Source of the DNA: Pricia antarctica
GTDB taxonomy: Bacteria > Bacteroidota > Bacteroidia > Flavobacteriales > Flavobacteriaceae
Length of the DNA: 64,000 nucleotides
Assembly: GCF_900101815.1 (NCBI RefSeq)
Contig: NZ_FNAO01000007.1
Span: forward strand, 124,001-188,000
Direction: 5' to 3'
Position 1 is the first letter of the stretch, and every line of letters begins with the position of its first letter. Below are positions 34,643 to 43,489 of the stretch, in pieces. Both the position numbers and the translations under genes were made by a program. The notes beneath the pieces are model-generated. The model searched no databases, was not told the DNA's origin, and worked only from the letters and a program-made list of their open reading frames with translations.

Positions 34643-34805
34643 ATTTGCAAGGTTTGAGGCCGAGCACCCGGATACCTTTCAGATCAGCCTTTCATGAAAA
34701 ACCGTGTTGATGGTCGTCCAAAAAAGGGTTCAACAAATGATTTTACCGATTTTTTCGTTAAATTCCCCTTCCAAAGCAAGTATCCTCCTTCAAAAAAGCC
34801 ATCCC

Positions 34806-36293
34806 ATGAAAAAACTCAAATTTTTAACAGTACTAACCTGCATTCTTTTTTTCGCAGGCAAGACCCAAGCCAACACGGATCCTGAAAAACCATCCAAAAA
34901 GAAACCCAGAAATGTCATTTTTATCCTCACCGACGACCATCGCTATGACTATATGGGTTTTACGGGAAAAGTACCTTGGCTCGAGACTCCAAATATGGAT
35001 AGGCTGGCATCCGAGGGAGCTTATTTGCCGAATACCTTTGTCACCACTTCGCTGTGTTCTCCCAGCAGGGCCTCTATTTTAACCGGACAATTCTCTCATT
35101 CCCATACCATAGTAGACAATCAGGCCCCGAACCCTGGAAATTTAACTTTTTTCCCTGAATATTTGGAAAAGGCCGGATACCAAACGGGATTTTTCGGCAA
35201 GTGGCATATGGGCGACCATGGCGACGAACCCCAACCGGGCTTTACCCATTGGGAGAGTTTTGTAGGGCAAGGGGTGTATTACAACCCTACCTTAAATATC
35301 GATGGAAAGCGAACGACGTATACAGATTCTACCTACATAACCGATCTCTTGACCGAACATGCCGTGGATTGGTTGGACAAACGGGACAAGAAAAAACCGT
35401 TCTTTATGTACTTGTCCCATAAAGCCGTACATGCGGGTTTTCAGCCCGCCCGTCGTCATAAGGGAAGGTATAAGGGCAATACCATAGCACTGCCCAGCAC
35501 CTATGGCCAAACGCTAACGGGAGAATACCGCGACCTAAAATGGCCCGAATGGGTCGCTAACCAGCGGGTAAGCTGGCATGGGGTGGACTATATGTACCAC
35601 GGATTTAACGATTTGAACGAAATGGTCGTCGATTATTGTGAAACGCTTTTAGGGGTCGACGAAAGCATCGGAACGGTGATGGACTACCTAAAAAAAGAGG
35701 GCCTCGACGATTCCACTTTGGTCATTTATATGGGCGATAACGGGTTTAGTTGGGGCGAACACGGGCTTATAGACAAACGCCATTTTTATGAGGAATCGGT
35801 AAAAGTGCCGCTATTGGTGCGCTGTCCAGACCTTTTCGAGGGCGGGAAGACGCCGAAACAGATGGTTCAGAACATTGATATCGGTCCTACGGTATTGGCG
35901 GAAGCGGGTGTAAAACAACCGGACAATATGCCCGGGGTCTCTTTTATTCCGATTTTGACAGGGGATACCACTGCAAAATCCCGCGATGCCATTTTTTACG
36001 AATATTATTGGGAATACGATTTTCCCATGACCCCCACGGTCTTCGGTATGCGAACGGACAAATATAAATACATTAAATATCAGGGCATTTGGGACAGAAA
36101 CGAACTTTACGACCTTGAAAATGATCCCGATGAAATGTACAACCTAATTGCCGACCCCGATAAACAGGATATCGCCAAATCGATGGCCACCGATATTTAC
36201 GATTGGCTCGAAGAAACGGGTGGTATGCAGATACCGCTAAAGCGAACGGTAAAGTACCGGTTTGGGGATTTTAAGCATGAAGGGGAATATTGA
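34806..36293 (+). CDS. Type I sulfatase (arylsulfatase family)
   Basis: A 495-residue exported sulfatase. The start at 34806 is chosen because it gives a clean signal peptide (KKLKFLTVLTCILFFAGKTQA); an in-frame ATG 34 codons upstream precedes it with non-signal sequence. The catalytic motif CSPSRASILTGQ has Cys84 for conversion to formylglycine. Calcium ligands are in ILTDDHRYD near the N-terminus and YMGDNGFSWGEHG later. FFGKWHMGDH is also conserved. The exact sulfated substrate cannot be assigned. A formylglycine-generating enzyme is needed but none is present here. Its location beside esterase and SusC/D genes suggests desulfation of an algal or animal polysaccharide. Confidence 0.93.
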   Translation: MKKLKFLTVLTCILFFAGKTQANTDPEKPSKKKPRNVIFILTDDHRYDYMGFTGKVPWLETPNMDRLASEGAYLPNTFVTTSLCSPSRASILTGQFSHSHTIVDNQAPNPGNLTFFPEYLEKAGYQTGFFGKWHMGDHGDEPQPGFTHWESFVGQGVYYNPTLNIDGKRTTYTDSTYITDLLTEHAVDWLDKRDKKKPFFMYLSHKAVHAGFQPARRHKGRYKGNTIALPSTYGQTLTGEYRDLKWPEWVANQRVSWHGVDYMYHGFNDLNEMVVDYCETLLGVDESIGTVMDYLKKEGLDDSTLVIYMGDNGFSWGEHGLIDKRHFYEESVKVPLLVRCPDLFEGGKTPKQMVQNIDIGPTVLAEAGVKQPDNMPGVSFIPILTGDTTAKSRDAIFYEYYWEYDFPMTPTVFGMRTDKYKYIKYQGIWDRNELYDLENDPDEMYNLIADPDKQDIAKSMATDIYDWLEETGGMQIPLKRTVKYRFGDFKHEGEY

Positions 36294-36331
36294 TCTAAGA
36301 GCTTAGTAGGAATAAAATGGCTATAGAAAAG

Positions 36332-36339
36332 TATCTTTG
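36332..36339 (+). promoter_or_regulatory. -7 box (TATCTTTG) close to the start of the cytochrome/FG-GAP gene
   Basis: A perfect TAnnTTTG ending 9 bp before the ATG at 36349. No clear -33 TTG. It predicts a leader of only a few nucleotides. Confidence 0.4.
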
Positions 36340-36348
36340 CAGTAATTT

Positions 36349-37869
36349 ATGAACAACAGCCTTTTTTCTTGCCTAGCGATGCTTTTCTTACTTACTGGAA
36401 TTTCCTGTTCAAATTCTGAAGGAACCAAGGGGAAAGTAATATATGAGGCACAATGCGCAAGTTGTCATATGCTTCCTGCTATCCAAGACCTGCCGAAAAA
36501 CTTATGGAAAGAAAAAGTACTACCCGAAATGGGGGCACGAATGGGAATTCGGGATTCTACCTATAATCCATACAAGGGGTATTCTTTTGAAGAACGATAT
36601 GCAGCGACACGAACCGGGGTGTACTCTGTGGTGCCTTCCATCTCAAAAGAAGAATGGCGAATGCTCGTTGAATATGTGGTTTCCAATGCACCGGACAGCT
36701 TGCGTAAAAACGATGAGGTCGGTAGTTTAAAATCGATAACTCAATTTTTACCGCATTTAGTAAATGTCGATAGCATTCGGGGCAGTTATATCACTTTTGC
36801 CGAATTCGACCCGAAAAAAGATAAAATGATAACAGGCGATATCCGGGGAAGAGTTCTTGAATACGACGCCGTTAAAAACACTATCGAGAAAAAGTTCACC
36901 CTTGATAACGCCATTACCGACCTTATCGAAACTGACAGTACAGTTTATATTACCACTGTAGGTATTCTTGAACCTTCGGAGATTTTAGCAGGTAAGATTC
37001 ATAGGGCTTCTAAGGGGTCAAGCGTCCCATTGCCTTTTGAATTTCATCGTCCCGTACATACCTTGGCCCATGATTTTAATAAAAATGGTAACCAGGAAAT
37101 AGTCGTTTGCGAATTCGGAAATCTCACGGGCCAGCTTTCGCTTTTAGTGAAAGGGAATGATTCGGTATTCGAAAAAAAAATACTGTTGAACCATCCGGGT
37201 GCACTGAGAACGATTGTTCGTGACATGGATGGAAATGGCAAGGATGATATTATCGTTATGACGGCCCAAGGCGATGAAGGCATCACTATTCTTTATCAGT
37301 TCGGCGACCTTGATTTCAGGGCAGAACAGGTCATTCGTTTTAGTCCACTTTACGGTAGCAGTTGGTTTGAAGTCTTGGATTATGATGGTGACGGGGATCA
37401 GGACATTATTACGGTACACGGCGATAATGGCGATAAAACGCCGGTACTAAAACCGTATCACGGACTACGGATTCATTTAAATGATGGGTTCAACCATTTT
37501 TCCGAAGCTTTCTTCTATCCCTTGTATGGGGCAACACGCAGTGTCAGTAGGGATTTTGATCAAGATGGGGATATTGATATCGCACTGATTTCCACTTTCC
37601 CCGATTATGATTCCCGGCCCGAAAAATCGTTTGTGTATCTGGAAAATATAAGCAGTTCCGATTTTAGTTTTCAGCCGTATGGTTTACCTGAAAATGTTTC
37701 CGGACGATGGTTTCTGATGGATGCGGGTGATGTCGACAAAGATGGTGATGAAGATATTGTACTGACGTGTTTCACTTATTCTTTTACCCCTGTTCCTGAG
37801 GATTTATCAAAAAAGTGGCGCGAATCCGATTTTGATATGGTTATTTTGGAAAATGATTTGATTGATTAA
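36349..37869 (+). CDS. Lipoprotein with cytochrome c domain fused to FG-GAP/VCBS repeats
   Basis: A 506-residue predicted lipoprotein (lipobox LTGISC, Cys20). Residues about 28-125 form a small cytochrome c domain with haem site CASCH (Cys36, Cys39, His40) and a possible axial Met in VLPEMGARMG. The rest is an FG-GAP/VCBS beta-propeller with at least five EF-hand-like calcium loops (DFNKNGNQE, DMDGNGKDD, DYDGDGDQD, DFDQDGDID, DVDKDGDED). The combination points to a surface or periplasmic redox-linked binding protein; its function is unknown. Its stop codon overlaps the converging 1198-aa FG-GAP gene (37866-37869), and both may belong to one functional locus. Confidence 0.85.
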   Translation: MNNSLFSCLAMLFLLTGISCSNSEGTKGKVIYEAQCASCHMLPAIQDLPKNLWKEKVLPEMGARMGIRDSTYNPYKGYSFEERYAATRTGVYSVVPSISKEEWRMLVEYVVSNAPDSLRKNDEVGSLKSITQFLPHLVNVDSIRGSYITFAEFDPKKDKMITGDIRGRVLEYDAVKNTIEKKFTLDNAITDLIETDSTVYITTVGILEPSEILAGKIHRASKGSSVPLPFEFHRPVHTLAHDFNKNGNQEIVVCEFGNLTGQLSLLVKGNDSVFEKKILLNHPGALRTIVRDMDGNGKDDIIVMTAQGDEGITILYQFGDLDFRAEQVIRFSPLYGSSWFEVLDYDGDGDQDIITVHGDNGDKTPVLKPYHGLRIHLNDGFNHFSEAFFYPLYGATRSVSRDFDQDGDIDIALISTFPDYDSRPEKSFVYLENISSSDFSFQPYGLPENVSGRWFLMDAGDVDKDGDEDIVLTCFTYSFTPVPEDLSKKWRESDFDMVILENDLID

Positions 37870-40800: not shown

Positions 40801-41462
40801 TCATCGTCTAAAGGTCTGAACTGGGTAGGGTCAATGCCTTCGATACGATTCACTCCAATGAAAAGATCGAGGTCACCGTCGTTGTCATAATCGAAAAATT
40901 GGGCATGCGATGAGTAGCTATCGTCGGCAACCCCATAAGCTTCTGCCATTTCTTCAAATAGGGGAATGCCATCTGCAGTGTTCCCTTGGTTGATATAAAG
41001 AAGATTTTTACGCCGTGTATCTCGTTTTCGAAACGTATTGCAGATATAGATATCCAATTTTCCATCGGTGTTGATATCGACGATAGAAACTCCGGAAGAC
41101 CACTGAAGGGTATCGGTTTTTCCAATTTTAGAGGGTGCGGAGCTATCTTCAAACTTGAACTTTCCTTTGTTCAGAAAGAGTTTGTTGTCTACTTGATTGC
41201 CTGCAAAAAAAACATCGTCCATTCCATCTCCGTTCAAGTCCCCTAAGGCTACGCCCGCACCGTTGTATACAAATTCACTATCTATAATGTTGATGGAATC
41301 GTTTTCGGAGAGTTGGTTGTTAAAATCAAGGCCCGATTTTGAGCTATCGATTTTTACGAAGCGGGTAGAATCCTCAGAATCGGTACAGCCGTAACTAAAA
41401 ATCAAAAAAAGCACCACTGTGATGTAACGGAAATTGATAGAAATTTGACGTAAAACTTTCAT
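37866..41462 (-). CDS. FG-GAP/VCBS and ASPIC-UnbV domain lipoprotein (CRTAC1-like)
   Basis: An 1198-residue predicted outer-surface lipoprotein (signal ending FSYGC, Cys26). It consists of two blocks of VCBS/FG-GAP repeats with calcium loops such as DLNGDGMDD, DINTDGKLD and DYDNDGDLD. They flank an ASPIC/UnbV domain at about residues 525-610 (GIGATVEIFADS, GRGYLSQPE, LHFGLG, IYWPDGK). Proteins of this architecture often accompany SusC/SusD pairs in marine Bacteroidota, but their biochemical role is unknown; glycan or protein binding is a guess. It lies 279 bp after susD on the same strand, yet a terminator and a 159-bp palindrome occupy that gap, so expression may be uncoupled or attenuated. 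Confidence 0.9.
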   Translation of the reverse strand: MKVLRQISINFRYITVVLFLIFSYGCTDSEDSTRFVKIDSSKSGLDFNNQLSENDSINIIDSEFVYNGAGVALGDLNGDGMDDVFFAGNQVDNKLFLNKGKFKFEDSSAPSKIGKTDTLQWSSGVSIVDINTDGKLDIYICNTFRKRDTRRKNLLYINQGNTADGIPLFEEMAEAYGVADDSYSSHAQFFDYDNDGDLDLFIGVNRIEGIDPTQFRPLDDDGSSLSKDRLYENQENDSLGHPNFVNVSEKAGIRYHGYSHSTLINDFNKDGWPDIYVANDFLSNDLVYINNQDGTFTNQARNMFKHFSLSSMGSDIADVNNDGQMSLYTTEMQPYYNKRKKLFQGPSNYQKEIFTKKFDYEKQYTRNTLQIDQGINPETGLPVFGEIGMLANVKETDWSWAPLFADYDNDGLQDLFITNGFPKDVTDRDFSDFRTTAKQFVSKEKLISAIPQIKIPNFMFRNKGNYEFEDTTEAWGLNFPTYSNGAAYGDLDQDGDLDLVVNNINENALLLENKTNELNSDDHYIRIKLKGTEKNPAGIGATVEIFADSLRQKKSLLSGRGYLSQPESILHFGLGKRSSIDSLSIYWPDGKSQKLVRIAVDTVLTIAYNPSATIQQTSKDTTVAVLFQKADTKYNLNHLAEDQDFIDFNFQATLPHKFSQYGPALSVGDINNDGLDDIFVGASRSFKEKWFIQQKDQRFVQQEVVYKNSPERYEEDAGTLLFDADNDGDLDLYIARGCAQYPSGHEFYTDVLMINDGKGNFTDSQNGLPDMRTNSSAVKAADFDHDGDLDLFVGSRVLPFAYPKPDRSYILRNESSKGHPKFVDITKDMSPELEFPGLISDALWTDFNGDSWPDLILAGEWMPLRFFKNESGKLVEVTEATGIANELGWWNSLAAADLDNDGDIDYIAGNVGENINFKGTKKEPVRIYAKDLDGNGSVDPLISFYLRDSVGTKKEYLYHPWQDVTKQYVGIRKRFNSYGEFGESTLPEMFPDGLLDDATVLSLNYMKTAWIENLGGEKFKIHALPIAAQIAPIYGILPQDLDGNGSMDLLLVGNDFGMEVQQGPADALVGLALKNKGNGSFEPIPLDKSQFFVPGDGKSLIRLNLNNEKNLIVASQNNDSLKVFERYQKYPGEIIPLRPNEVKTEISFQNGEKQLSEFYWGSTFQSQSSRSVTVPLQALEIRFYDTFGKETRVKKINN

Positions 41463-41482
41463 TCGAACTTTTGATTTATAAT

Positions 41483-41641
41483 GAACTCGTCTTGAGTTGC
41501 TCTTTTACCTACGATTTTCACATTTTGCGCTCTAATTTCATCTTTTTTTCTCACCATAGCTTTGGCTATGCTGATTAAAACCTTTCATTAAAGCACAAAA
41601 GCCGAAAATCTCGGTTCCAAACAACAACTCAAGAAGAGTTC
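41483..41641. repeat. 159-bp near-symmetrical palindromic element
   Basis: The outer arms GAACTCGTCTTGAGTTG (41483-41499) and CAACTCAAGAAGAGTTC (41625-41641) are inverted with one mismatch. The innermost arms CATAGC and GCTATG (41555-41570) flank TTTG. Both pairs share the same centre, 41562. The sequence between shows patchy complementarity. It holds no ORF and ends 20 bp before the ATG of the FG-GAP/ASPIC gene, so it is in that gene's leader. It may be a MITE-like repeat or an RNA structure. Confidence 0.75.
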
Positions 41642-41690
41642 ACTTCGGGGAATCACCGAACAAAGATGCGGCAATGTCTAAAAAGAAGCA

Positions 41691-41719
41691 AAAAAAAGCT
41701 GCCCGAAGAGGCAGCTTTT
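41691..41719 (-). terminator. Rho-independent terminator after susD
   Basis: Stem AAAAGCTGCC / GGCAGCTTTT with a six-base loop. On the minus strand it is followed by a T run (A run at 41691-41697 on the plus strand). It lies 22 bp after the SusD stop codon. Confidence 0.8.
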
Positions 41720-41740
41720 AAATAAACTAGTGAATTTTGA

Positions 41741-43489
41741 TTACCAACCCGGGTTTTGGGTCAATATTCCAGGTTGTAAATCTAGTTGAGTCTGGGGTAT
41801 CGGTAAATATTCGTTCTTTCCTGCCGTAAATTGACCGCCTGAATAGGCCGAGGACAAATATTGCTTTTCATAATTGATATAATCATTAATTACTTCGTCG
41901 GCAACGCCCCAACGGACCAAGTCAAAGAAACGGTGGCCTTCGCCCGAAAGTTCCAATTTACGTTCGAAACGTAAAGCCTGGGTAGCCGATTCTTTCGAGG
42001 CAAACTGTGACGGAGCGTATTCGGCAATTACATAATTAGCGGCATCAGTACCATCATCGTCCTTAACCCAGAATTCCGATTTGGCTGCCCTGGCACGTAC
42101 TTGATTGACGTAGGTTCGCGCCTGCTCCAAAGAACCGGCTTCGATTTCAGCCTCTGCGGCCATCAATAGTACGTCCGCAAATCGGATTATGGTGTAGTTC
42201 ATCGTAGCGTAACCGCGGGTCCATGAACTGGCATCGGTATACACCCCGTCTTGATTGACATAATAGACATATTTTTTTGGTGCATAAGGACCGCCGTAGC
42301 TCTGTACCCGTATCCAGGAGGCGCCTGGAAAAGGTTGCCATCCCAAATAGGGGATGCTTCTTCTTCCAATCGAAAAGTCGATTCGTGGATCTAGAGGCCC
42401 TGCATCAGCGGTGAAGGCTGCATCCGCAGCAACTCCCATATCCGTTACCAATTCATTTCCAGGGCTTCTGTAGGATTTATCCAATAAGGGGAGACCAGCA
42501 GGGGTCGTCCTAAAAGAATTGGCCAGTTCAAAACTGGGTTGAAAGAAACCGCAGCAATCGCCTGGGCCAGAACTACCTGTTTGATAGGGGTAGTTCAAGT
42601 CGTCCCACCAATTGGCGTTTAGTACGCTCCCGGTTTCGTTCGAAGACTCCACATCCATAACCACTTCGGCATGGTTATCGTTATCCGCATTAAAAATTTG
42701 TTGATAATCATCTAGCAGTTGATATTTGAGACCATTTGAGGTCTGCCCATTGGCGATTACATCATCGAACCAGGTTTTGGCTTCCGCAAATTTTTGTTGG
42801 TACAATTTTGCTTTGCCCATATAGGCCGCAGCGGCCCATTTGTTTACCCTACCTGCATCCGTTACTTCGTTAAGATTATCGTAGGCAAACTGAAAATCTG
42901 CTTCGATTTGTGCCCAAGCGTCCCCGTTATTGGGTAGCTCTGTAATCTCTGTTGACGACAAGGTTTCGTCGAACACCACGATATTGTTAAAGTGTTTTTT
43001 CAAATCAAAGTAAAAATGACCCCTCAACATTCTGGCTTGCGCCTGTAAACTTGCGGCCTTTTCGGCAGGTATCAAGTCGATAGATTTCGCAATGGTGGCC
43101 AATACGGCATTACACCTGCTCACGCCCTCGTAGCGAGCTCTCCATAGGTCATTAAACCTTCCATAGGTCGGATCGTTCTGGAATCGCTGTATGGTGGCCA
43201 GTTCGGCATCGTCTCCGGGATCCGTACCTTTGTTGGCATCCCCGCCGAGGATGGATCCGGTAATCCAATGGTTCGGCGCTGCCGCACGGTTCCCGTTCAA
43301 GTTTCCATTGATCATGGAGTAGGCACCTATTAAAAGGCCTTCAATACCATCAAGGGTACTGACTTGGGCATCCGCTAAGGTACCGGTGGGCGCCACCTCT
43401 AAAAATTCATTGCTACAAGATACCCCAGCGAGCAGGAGGATACCACCTGTAAGGGCAATGAATTTTTTTGTTCTACGTATTGTTTTCAT
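41741..43489 (-). CDS. SusD/RagB family nutrient-binding outer-membrane lipoprotein
   Basis: A 582-residue SusD-like lipoprotein (lipobox LAGVSC, Cys25, followed by NEFLEVAPTGTL). The TPR-rich SusD fold is indicated by LEGLLIGAYSMING near the N-terminus, RMLRGHFYFDLKKHFN, and the C-terminal RFADVLLMAAEAEIEAG, VNQVRARA, FERKLELSGEGHRFFDLVRW and EYLPIPQTQLDLQPG. It would bind an oligosaccharide or other ligand at the cell surface and cap the SusC channel encoded just upstream (63 bp away, same strand). The ligand cannot be assigned, since no glycoside hydrolase is encoded nearby. Confidence 0.95.
   Translation of the reverse strand: MKTIRRTKKFIALTGGILLLAGVSCSNEFLEVAPTGTLADAQVSTLDGIEGLLIGAYSMINGNLNGNRAAAPNHWITGSILGGDANKGTDPGDDAELATIQRFQNDPTYGRFNDLWRARYEGVSRCNAVLATIAKSIDLIPAEKAASLQAQARMLRGHFYFDLKKHFNNIVVFDETLSSTEITELPNNGDAWAQIEADFQFAYDNLNEVTDAGRVNKWAAAAYMGKAKLYQQKFAEAKTWFDDVIANGQTSNGLKYQLLDDYQQIFNADNDNHAEVVMDVESSNETGSVLNANWWDDLNYPYQTGSSGPGDCCGFFQPSFELANSFRTTPAGLPLLDKSYRSPGNELVTDMGVAADAAFTADAGPLDPRIDFSIGRRSIPYLGWQPFPGASWIRVQSYGGPYAPKKYVYYVNQDGVYTDASSWTRGYATMNYTIIRFADVLLMAAEAEIEAGSLEQARTYVNQVRARAAKSEFWVKDDDGTDAANYVIAEYAPSQFASKESATQALRFERKLELSGEGHRFFDLVRWGVADEVINDYINYEKQYLSSAYSGGQFTAGKNEYLPIPQTQLDLQPGILTQNPGW

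Follow-up and report, generated by a model that had tools for sequence, protein, structure and literature searches.

A dispersed palindromic MITE family with IS5-type ends in Pricia antarctica and other Flavobacteriaceae

The ERIC sequence of enterobacteria has a length of 127 bp. In the portion of the literature drawn upon here, it is described as a miniature inverted-repeat element (MITE) that takes the form of a short intergenic palindrome, and occurs in many genera, with copy numbers per genome in the tens to hundreds (PMC10969869). The same source describes the Correia elements of Neisseria as MITEs that are often located upstream of genes, and whose RNA is cleaved at the terminal repeats by RNase III (PMC10969869). 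In Porphyromonas gingivalis, the elements BrickBuilt, MITE464/PgRS, MITE239 and MITE700 are IS5-related MITEs, according to the excerpt cited (PMC4596501).

An earlier note on a stretch of the Pricia antarctica genome (64,000 nucleotides in length, hereafter 'the window') called attention to a palindrome in the leader of a gene encoding an FG-GAP protein. The analysis described below indicates that this palindrome is very probably a copy of a non-autonomous MITE of approximately 160 bp, which corresponds to one long imperfect palindrome in intergenic DNA, is most likely moved in trans by an IS5-family transposase with matching ends, and retains its hairpin in the lineage of copies that jump; the copy in the window represents an insertion that is absent from three congeners.

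The palindrome and its surroundings

The near-symmetrical palindrome reported in the earlier note (159 bp, 41483–41641, centred at 41562, and ending 20 bp ahead of the start codon at 41460–41462 of the minus-strand FG-GAP gene) was borne out by its coordinates and its predicted fold (Table 1). The outer arms were likewise present, but the 17 bp originally assigned to them proved too short: they span 24 nucleotides each (41482–41505 and 41619–41642) and are 88% complementary, as is expected of the terminal inverted repeats of a MITE and as is also seen in the arms of the family consensus. Further towards the centre lie inner arms (41513–41536 and 41587–41610; 79% complementary) and innermost arms (41545–41560 and 41565–41580; 81% complementary). 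When folded as RNA, a check that the note had proposed, the palindrome is far more stable than shuffled sequences on both strands, with energies of -48.7 kcal/mol for the plus strand (z -8.1) and -69.6 kcal/mol for the minus strand (z -10.2) that were equalled by 0 of 200 shuffles in either case. The copy was assigned to the minus strand on two grounds: its fold is the more stable of the two, and it is the coding strand for the FG-GAP protein. It is without coding capacity, the list of open reading frames containing no long frame within it, and a search of Rfam produced only sub-threshold matches, with none at or above the gathering threshold in the window or in 16 loci of the element.

Table 1. 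Features of the window around the palindrome
Feature	Position	Strand	Basis
MITE copy, 159 bp	41483..41641	-	arms, fold energies, family searches
Outer terminal arm, gene-proximal end, ends GAACTC	41483..41505		arm search
Outer terminal arm, susD-proximal end, ends GAGTTC	41619..41641		arm search
Apical hairpin CATAGC-TTTG-GCTATG	41555..41570		sequence, folds of both strands
Flanking AAT, presumed target duplication	41480..41482		sequence and family rule; 2 of 3 bases match other flank
Flanking ACT, presumed other target duplication	41642..41644		sequence and family rule
FG-GAP / ASPIC-UnbV protein gene, 1198 aa	37866..41462	-	ORF list, Pfam
susD-family gene, 582 aa	41741..43489	-	ORF list, Pfam
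Terminator-like hairpin 3' of susD	41694..41719	-	11 pairs, then T run
Candidate native promoter TTTG-20-CATCTTTG, upstream of element	41661..41692	-	inferred

The terminator that had been placed behind susD is recognizable as a terminator-like hairpin (minus strand, 41719–41694). Beside the SusCD pair, on the other strand (34704–37869), translation reveals a sulfatase-like frame and an FG-GAP-rich frame with a CxxCH motif. The suggestion that the palindrome itself supplies a promoter found no support in a scan of positions 41300–41800, which detected no sigma-70-type site, and a candidate native promoter is located upstream of the element. Promoters of the Bacteroidota take the form TTTG / TAnnTTTG, which the candidate (TTTG-20-CATCTTTG) resembles with one mismatch; by eye, its spacing is kept in the aligned congeneric genomes G001 and G003 and not in G002, and a loosened version of the pattern occurs in the window at the level of chance (5 found versus 4.4 expected). 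If the candidate is a real promoter, then the element lies within the 5' UTR and its hairpin within the mRNA. The copy would accordingly sit between that promoter and the FG-GAP start codon, and its transcript would probably form a hairpin of great stability in the 5' UTR; it might in this way affect the expression of the FG-GAP gene, for instance as the attenuator suggested in the earlier note. Processing of such a transcribed hairpin by RNase III is plausible, by analogy with the Correia elements as described in the cited portion of PMC10969869.

Copies, insertion sites and host range

A DNA search of the P. antarctica genome (4.85 Mb, in 52 contigs) with the element gave at least 40 matches, 40 of 68 candidates having been scored, and a covariance model (R1) was built from 34 of these own copies, the remaining 6 being dropped from the corresponding alignment (A1) as decayed or ill-bounded. 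With an E-value threshold of 0.01, the model produced at least 85 matches (150 of 2462 candidates scored); as a palindrome is matched on either strand, these correspond to at least 55 separate places. Copy numbers throughout are lower bounds, with 14 candidates scored per genome in the draw of family genomes and 7 in that of the class. This genome-wide search, which the earlier note had suggested, establishes its miniature inverted-repeat reading as the right one, as do a 3-bp target duplication relative to an empty site and the IS5-type ends, both described below. A further search of the same genome, which looked for a parent IS by way of the end pattern and allowed up to 3 mismatches, located 35 places but no such IS; of 7 new ones examined, 4 were additional full copies (L048, L050, L051 and L054) and 3 (L049, L052 and L053) were one-ended stretches with no transposase nearby.

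The copies of the P. antarctica genome are not confined to 157–161 bp: by the end calls of this analysis they measure approximately 149 to 165 bp, with one outlier of 172 bp, and 0 of 101 copies from this, congeneric and other genomes lie within an open reading frame of 90 or more amino acids. In the congener G002, where R1 gave 30 matches, several copies, such as those at G002:C1:2627364-2627533 and G002:C2:255504-255674, are 169–171 bp in length and appear to represent a lengthened subfamily in that one congener. The congener G001 gave no R1 match, yet contains short remnants detectable by BLAST (for example, 92 bp at 77%). At L037:2559-2616 and L082:5558-5656, the middle of the palindrome is deleted and the ends are left, as in hairpin-type deletion derivatives.

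The susD/FG-GAP neighbourhood is present in three congeneric genomes (G001, G002 and G003), and in all three the orthologous leader is without the element and contains a short spacer instead, while the terminator-like hairpin behind susD is still present (as judged by eye in the alignment). The other proposal of the earlier note was that the leader hairpin is a structured RNA with a regulatory role at the FG-GAP gene, adjusting how much SusCD is made relative to the accessory protein; the very stable fold of the coding strand, so close to the ATG and in a probable 5' UTR position, speaks in its favour. An RNA conserved upstream of orthologous genes is contradicted by the three empty leaders, which were taken to rule that candidate out, and the occurrence of the element at at least 55 genomic places, in other contexts, as well as the lack of a match in Rfam, likewise count against what must be considered a highly improbable explanation. 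The element was inserted ahead of the FG-GAP gene, and did not evolve to control that gene.

The nature of the insertion event is visible at the copy at C18:306265, where AAT, 160 bp of element and a second AAT are found at the position of a single AAT in the uninterrupted site of G003. For the copy at C18:312795, the match coordinates in G001 leave no room for the element, but the alignment is unusable and this site does not enter into the evidence. The 3-bp flanks of 40 own copies agree at 0.625 of their bases, versus 0.412 when shuffled (z 5.7), and exact 3-bp duplications were found in 10 of these 40 copies (shuffled mean 3.1, largest 9) and in 25 of 40 copies of other genera from 23 genomes (mean 4.3, largest 11; 2000 shuffles each). 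The flanks of the window copy, AAT and ACT, agree at two of three bases, which was counted against the MITE account. Insertion would duplicate 3 bp of an AT-rich target.

The same duplication bears upon the possibility that the element belongs to the palindromes of REP/RAYT type, which a Y1 (HUH) transposase moves via single-stranded DNA, a class to which its dispersed and extragenic distribution would be suited and for which Y1 genes are at hand (1 in the own genome, 5 matches in G003 and 14 matches in G009). Y1 elements are not known to make a target duplication. The presence of a 3-bp duplication at the empty site, and the ability of G002 to carry the element (in 30 matches) with no Y1 match, were the grounds on which this candidate was rejected; the element, at 160 bp, is also far above the 20–40 bp of REPs as given in the excerpt cited (PMC3733652), and such an origin is extremely unlikely. 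The one Y1 (RAYT-like) transposase of the own genome (L125, G000:C17:290302-290661) has an open frame and is, as far as could be seen, unrelated to the palindrome.

The MITE is widely distributed, being found at E 1e-5 or better in 32 of 199 Flavobacteriaceae genomes (31 of 198 genera). Of 395 genomes drawn from the class, 15 were positive, 13 of them outside the family and distributed among 8 families, although these class-wide matches may in part be unrelated palindromes. In a check by sequence only, 2 of 8 class-wide loci reached E 1e-10, 4 fell between 1.8e-6 and 1.4e-4, and 2 were weak; under the same conditions 40 of 40 family loci scored 1.8e-9 or better, and the best of 40 artificial palindromes reached E 1.6. 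No published description of the element was found in the literature searched, a body of work that lay outside ISfinder.

IS5-type ends and a candidate helper

Two insertion sequences in G003 resemble the element at their ends. The first (918 bp) begins and ends with GAAGTGATTTAGACTTTTT and GAAGTCATTTAGACTTTTT between ATT/ATT flanks, while the second (927 bp) is flanked by ACT/ACT; both carry a DUF4096/DDE transposase according to Pfam, and that of the 918-bp IS scores above the NCBIfam cut-off for IS5 family transposases. The ends of the 918-bp IS agree with the own-copy consensus at 17 and 19 of 20 bases. In G139, the ends of the element and of the IS are identical over 19 bases, and in both G139 and G152 the sequence GAACTCATTTAAACTTTTT is wholly common to an IS end and to element ends, while G003 and its genus display a TTTAGAC form in the ends of both. 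Variation at the ends of the element is thus matched by variation at those of the IS. The subfamily to which the window copy belongs (ends GTCTTGAGTT) agrees with the best IS end at 15 and 16 of 19 bases at most, a poorer fit that counts against this account.

Relatives of the 275-residue IS5-type protein of the 918-bp IS were found at E 1e-20 in 10 of the 199 family genomes, and among the loci so found 10 distinct insertion sequences of 902–929 bp with paired ends were delineated, 6 of them with an exact 3-bp duplication. The element is present in 5 of the 10 genomes that contain such an IS and in 27 of the 189 that do not (Fisher p 0.011), a co-occurrence that is only suggestive of movement by an IS5-type transposase. 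Counted against such a helper is the finding that 27 of 32 carrier genomes have no relative of the transposase at E 1e-20; since most carriers are now without it, the involvement of other IS5-type enzymes, or the loss of former helpers, has to be assumed. Also counted against it is the state of the own genome, in which the IS5-type transposase is present only as one broken fragment, although an intact IS could have been lost at a contig break, given an assembly of 52 contigs. The interior of the MITE has no demonstrated source in the IS, which was likewise held against this account. From the matching ends we infer that the MITE is mobilized in trans, such that an IS5-family transposase would act upon an element that encodes nothing itself.

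In G087, the remnant of a transposase lies within a stretch of 538 bp (L241:1426-1963) that has ends of the IS5 type and is flanked by ATT on both sides; this stretch may represent an intermediate between IS and MITE. Congeners and the own genome also contain other DDE_Tnp_1 transposases (L139, L142, L147 and similar), whose open frames measure 516–533 residues; a scan of the DNA near them for element-like ends found none.

Maintenance of the hairpin and comparison with described elements

The hairpin was followed across genera in an alignment (A4) of 35 copies, comprising 4 own copies and 31 of 40 fetched loci (9 near-duplicates having been dropped), where the 40 loci, chosen among high scores, derive from 23 of 32 positive genomes. 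Within A4, 84.6% of cells pair and 48 of 65 pairs change on both sides (shuffled mean 32), with a covariation score of 0.326 versus 0.119 for shuffled and 0.05–0.09 for slid controls, so that the covariation check proposed in the earlier note came out positively across genera; the structures counted on A1 and A4 had been derived by folding individual members of these very sequence sets, which favours them. On A1, RNAalifold returned no pairs, and in one measure of covariation (further pair types) 24 of 500 shuffles did as well as the alignment. Across genera, blocks of mismatch persist (CCT or GCT opposite TCG).

Close copies behave otherwise than distant ones. Among own copies that are 85–95% alike, 75–82% of differing pairs are one-sided breaks and 3–4% are compensated, and pairing falls with divergence (Spearman 0.49, p 0.004, n=34), whereas among cross-genus copies less than 70% alike, 36–41% of differing pairs are compensated; the A4 bin at or above 90% identity (7 cells, non-independent) runs opposite to this trend, at 43% compensated. 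Because covariation is found across genera while pairs are broken among close own copies, the constraint upon the hairpin seems to act on the jumping source lineage rather than on landed copies. The hairpin would be maintained among copies that keep jumping, and each copy, once landed, would decay; we infer that it is selected for mobility.

Arm-to-arm correction is known for palindromes. The same MITE might have unselected arms that are homogenized, as any palindrome would be, by template switching or hairpin repair, and the small compensated fraction (3–4%) among own copies 85–95% alike also speaks for that explanation. The persistence of mismatched blocks across genera counts against it, as correction should erase them, and so does the lean of non-Watson-Crick cells in A4 towards one strand beyond 500 shuffles, although the own-genome set displays no such lean. 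Correction of unselected arms is possible, if doubtful.

The strand lean itself consists of 145 A-C cells (G-U on the other strand) versus 71 G-U cells in A4, distributed over 30 pairs versus 10, although one of ten slid controls (+7) matches that ratio (306 to 145). The A-C share of 0.671 in A4 exceeds all 500 column-keeping shuffles (mean 0.579, largest 0.614), and that of A1 does not (0.601; mean 0.584, largest 0.616; 500 shuffles). Of the 35 copies, 34 fold more stably on the strand that corresponds to minus in the window, which is also the strand towards which G-U cells lean in A4, and in 35 of 51 tandem gene pairs the genes run in the direction of this strand (p 0.011); two other orientation tests gave 64 of 108 (p 0.067) and 52 of 85 (p 0.050), all three p values being uncorrected and based upon mechanical ORF calls. 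The count of 35 of 51 speaks for the possibility that hosts have co-opted the hairpin of the MITE as an mRNA-stabilizing or processing signal, with landed copies kept by host selection. That explanation is improbable, given that landed copies lose pairing as they diverge, that close copies mostly break pairs, and that one of the three groups tested (17 loci, mostly congeners) gave 4 co-directional and 5 anti-directional copies.

Strand lean and orientation are pointers to a single-stranded role, and no more. A bolder proposal, offered tentatively and on balance unlikely, is that the whole 160-nucleotide hairpin acts in single-stranded form and in one polarity, whether as ssDNA or as RNA, and is a working part of the mobile element across many families of the class, being needed for movement or for tolerance after landing, and selected through jumping copies and not at any one site; under this proposal, bulges and a near-constant length would persist over approximately 30 genera while the ends follow different IS5-type transposons.

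The element constitutes a new IS5-type MITE family of an ordinary kind; what makes it notable is how widely it is spread and that its hairpin is maintained. The Flavobacteriaceae thereby gain an ERIC-like repeat with a likely helper transposon and the proof of an empty site, and the testable question is raised of why a gene-less transposon keeps a full, bulged hairpin of 160 nucleotides over many genera while its single copies decay. The locus also calls for caution, since a leader hairpin that covaries and is highly stable can turn out to be mobile DNA instead of a riboregulator.

As described in the portions of the sources cited, REP elements with GTAG/CGTC tags are likewise dispersed extragenic palindromes, but are 20–40 bp in length and tied to RAYT proteins, whereas the present element is approximately 160 bp and produces a 3-bp target duplication (PMC3733652). 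ERIC is similar by description, as a short, intergenic, palindromic MITE of multiple genera (PMC10969869), from which the present element differs in length (approximately 160 bp), hosts, likely IS5-type helper and 3-bp duplication. The Correia elements are likewise MITEs, often upstream of genes, and RNase III cutting would be expected of a transcribed hairpin here; promoters and an IHF site are described for them and not for this element (PMC10969869). The MITEs of P. gingivalis, in the excerpt cited, are likewise of the Bacteroidota and have terminal repeats that match IS5-family insertion sequences; their ends (GAGACTGTTGCA, ACGTCAGTTCGA and the like) differ from the GAACTC/GAAGTG ends seen here, and BrickBuilt and PgRS hold internal tandem repeats, whereas the present element is a single hairpin (PMC4596501).
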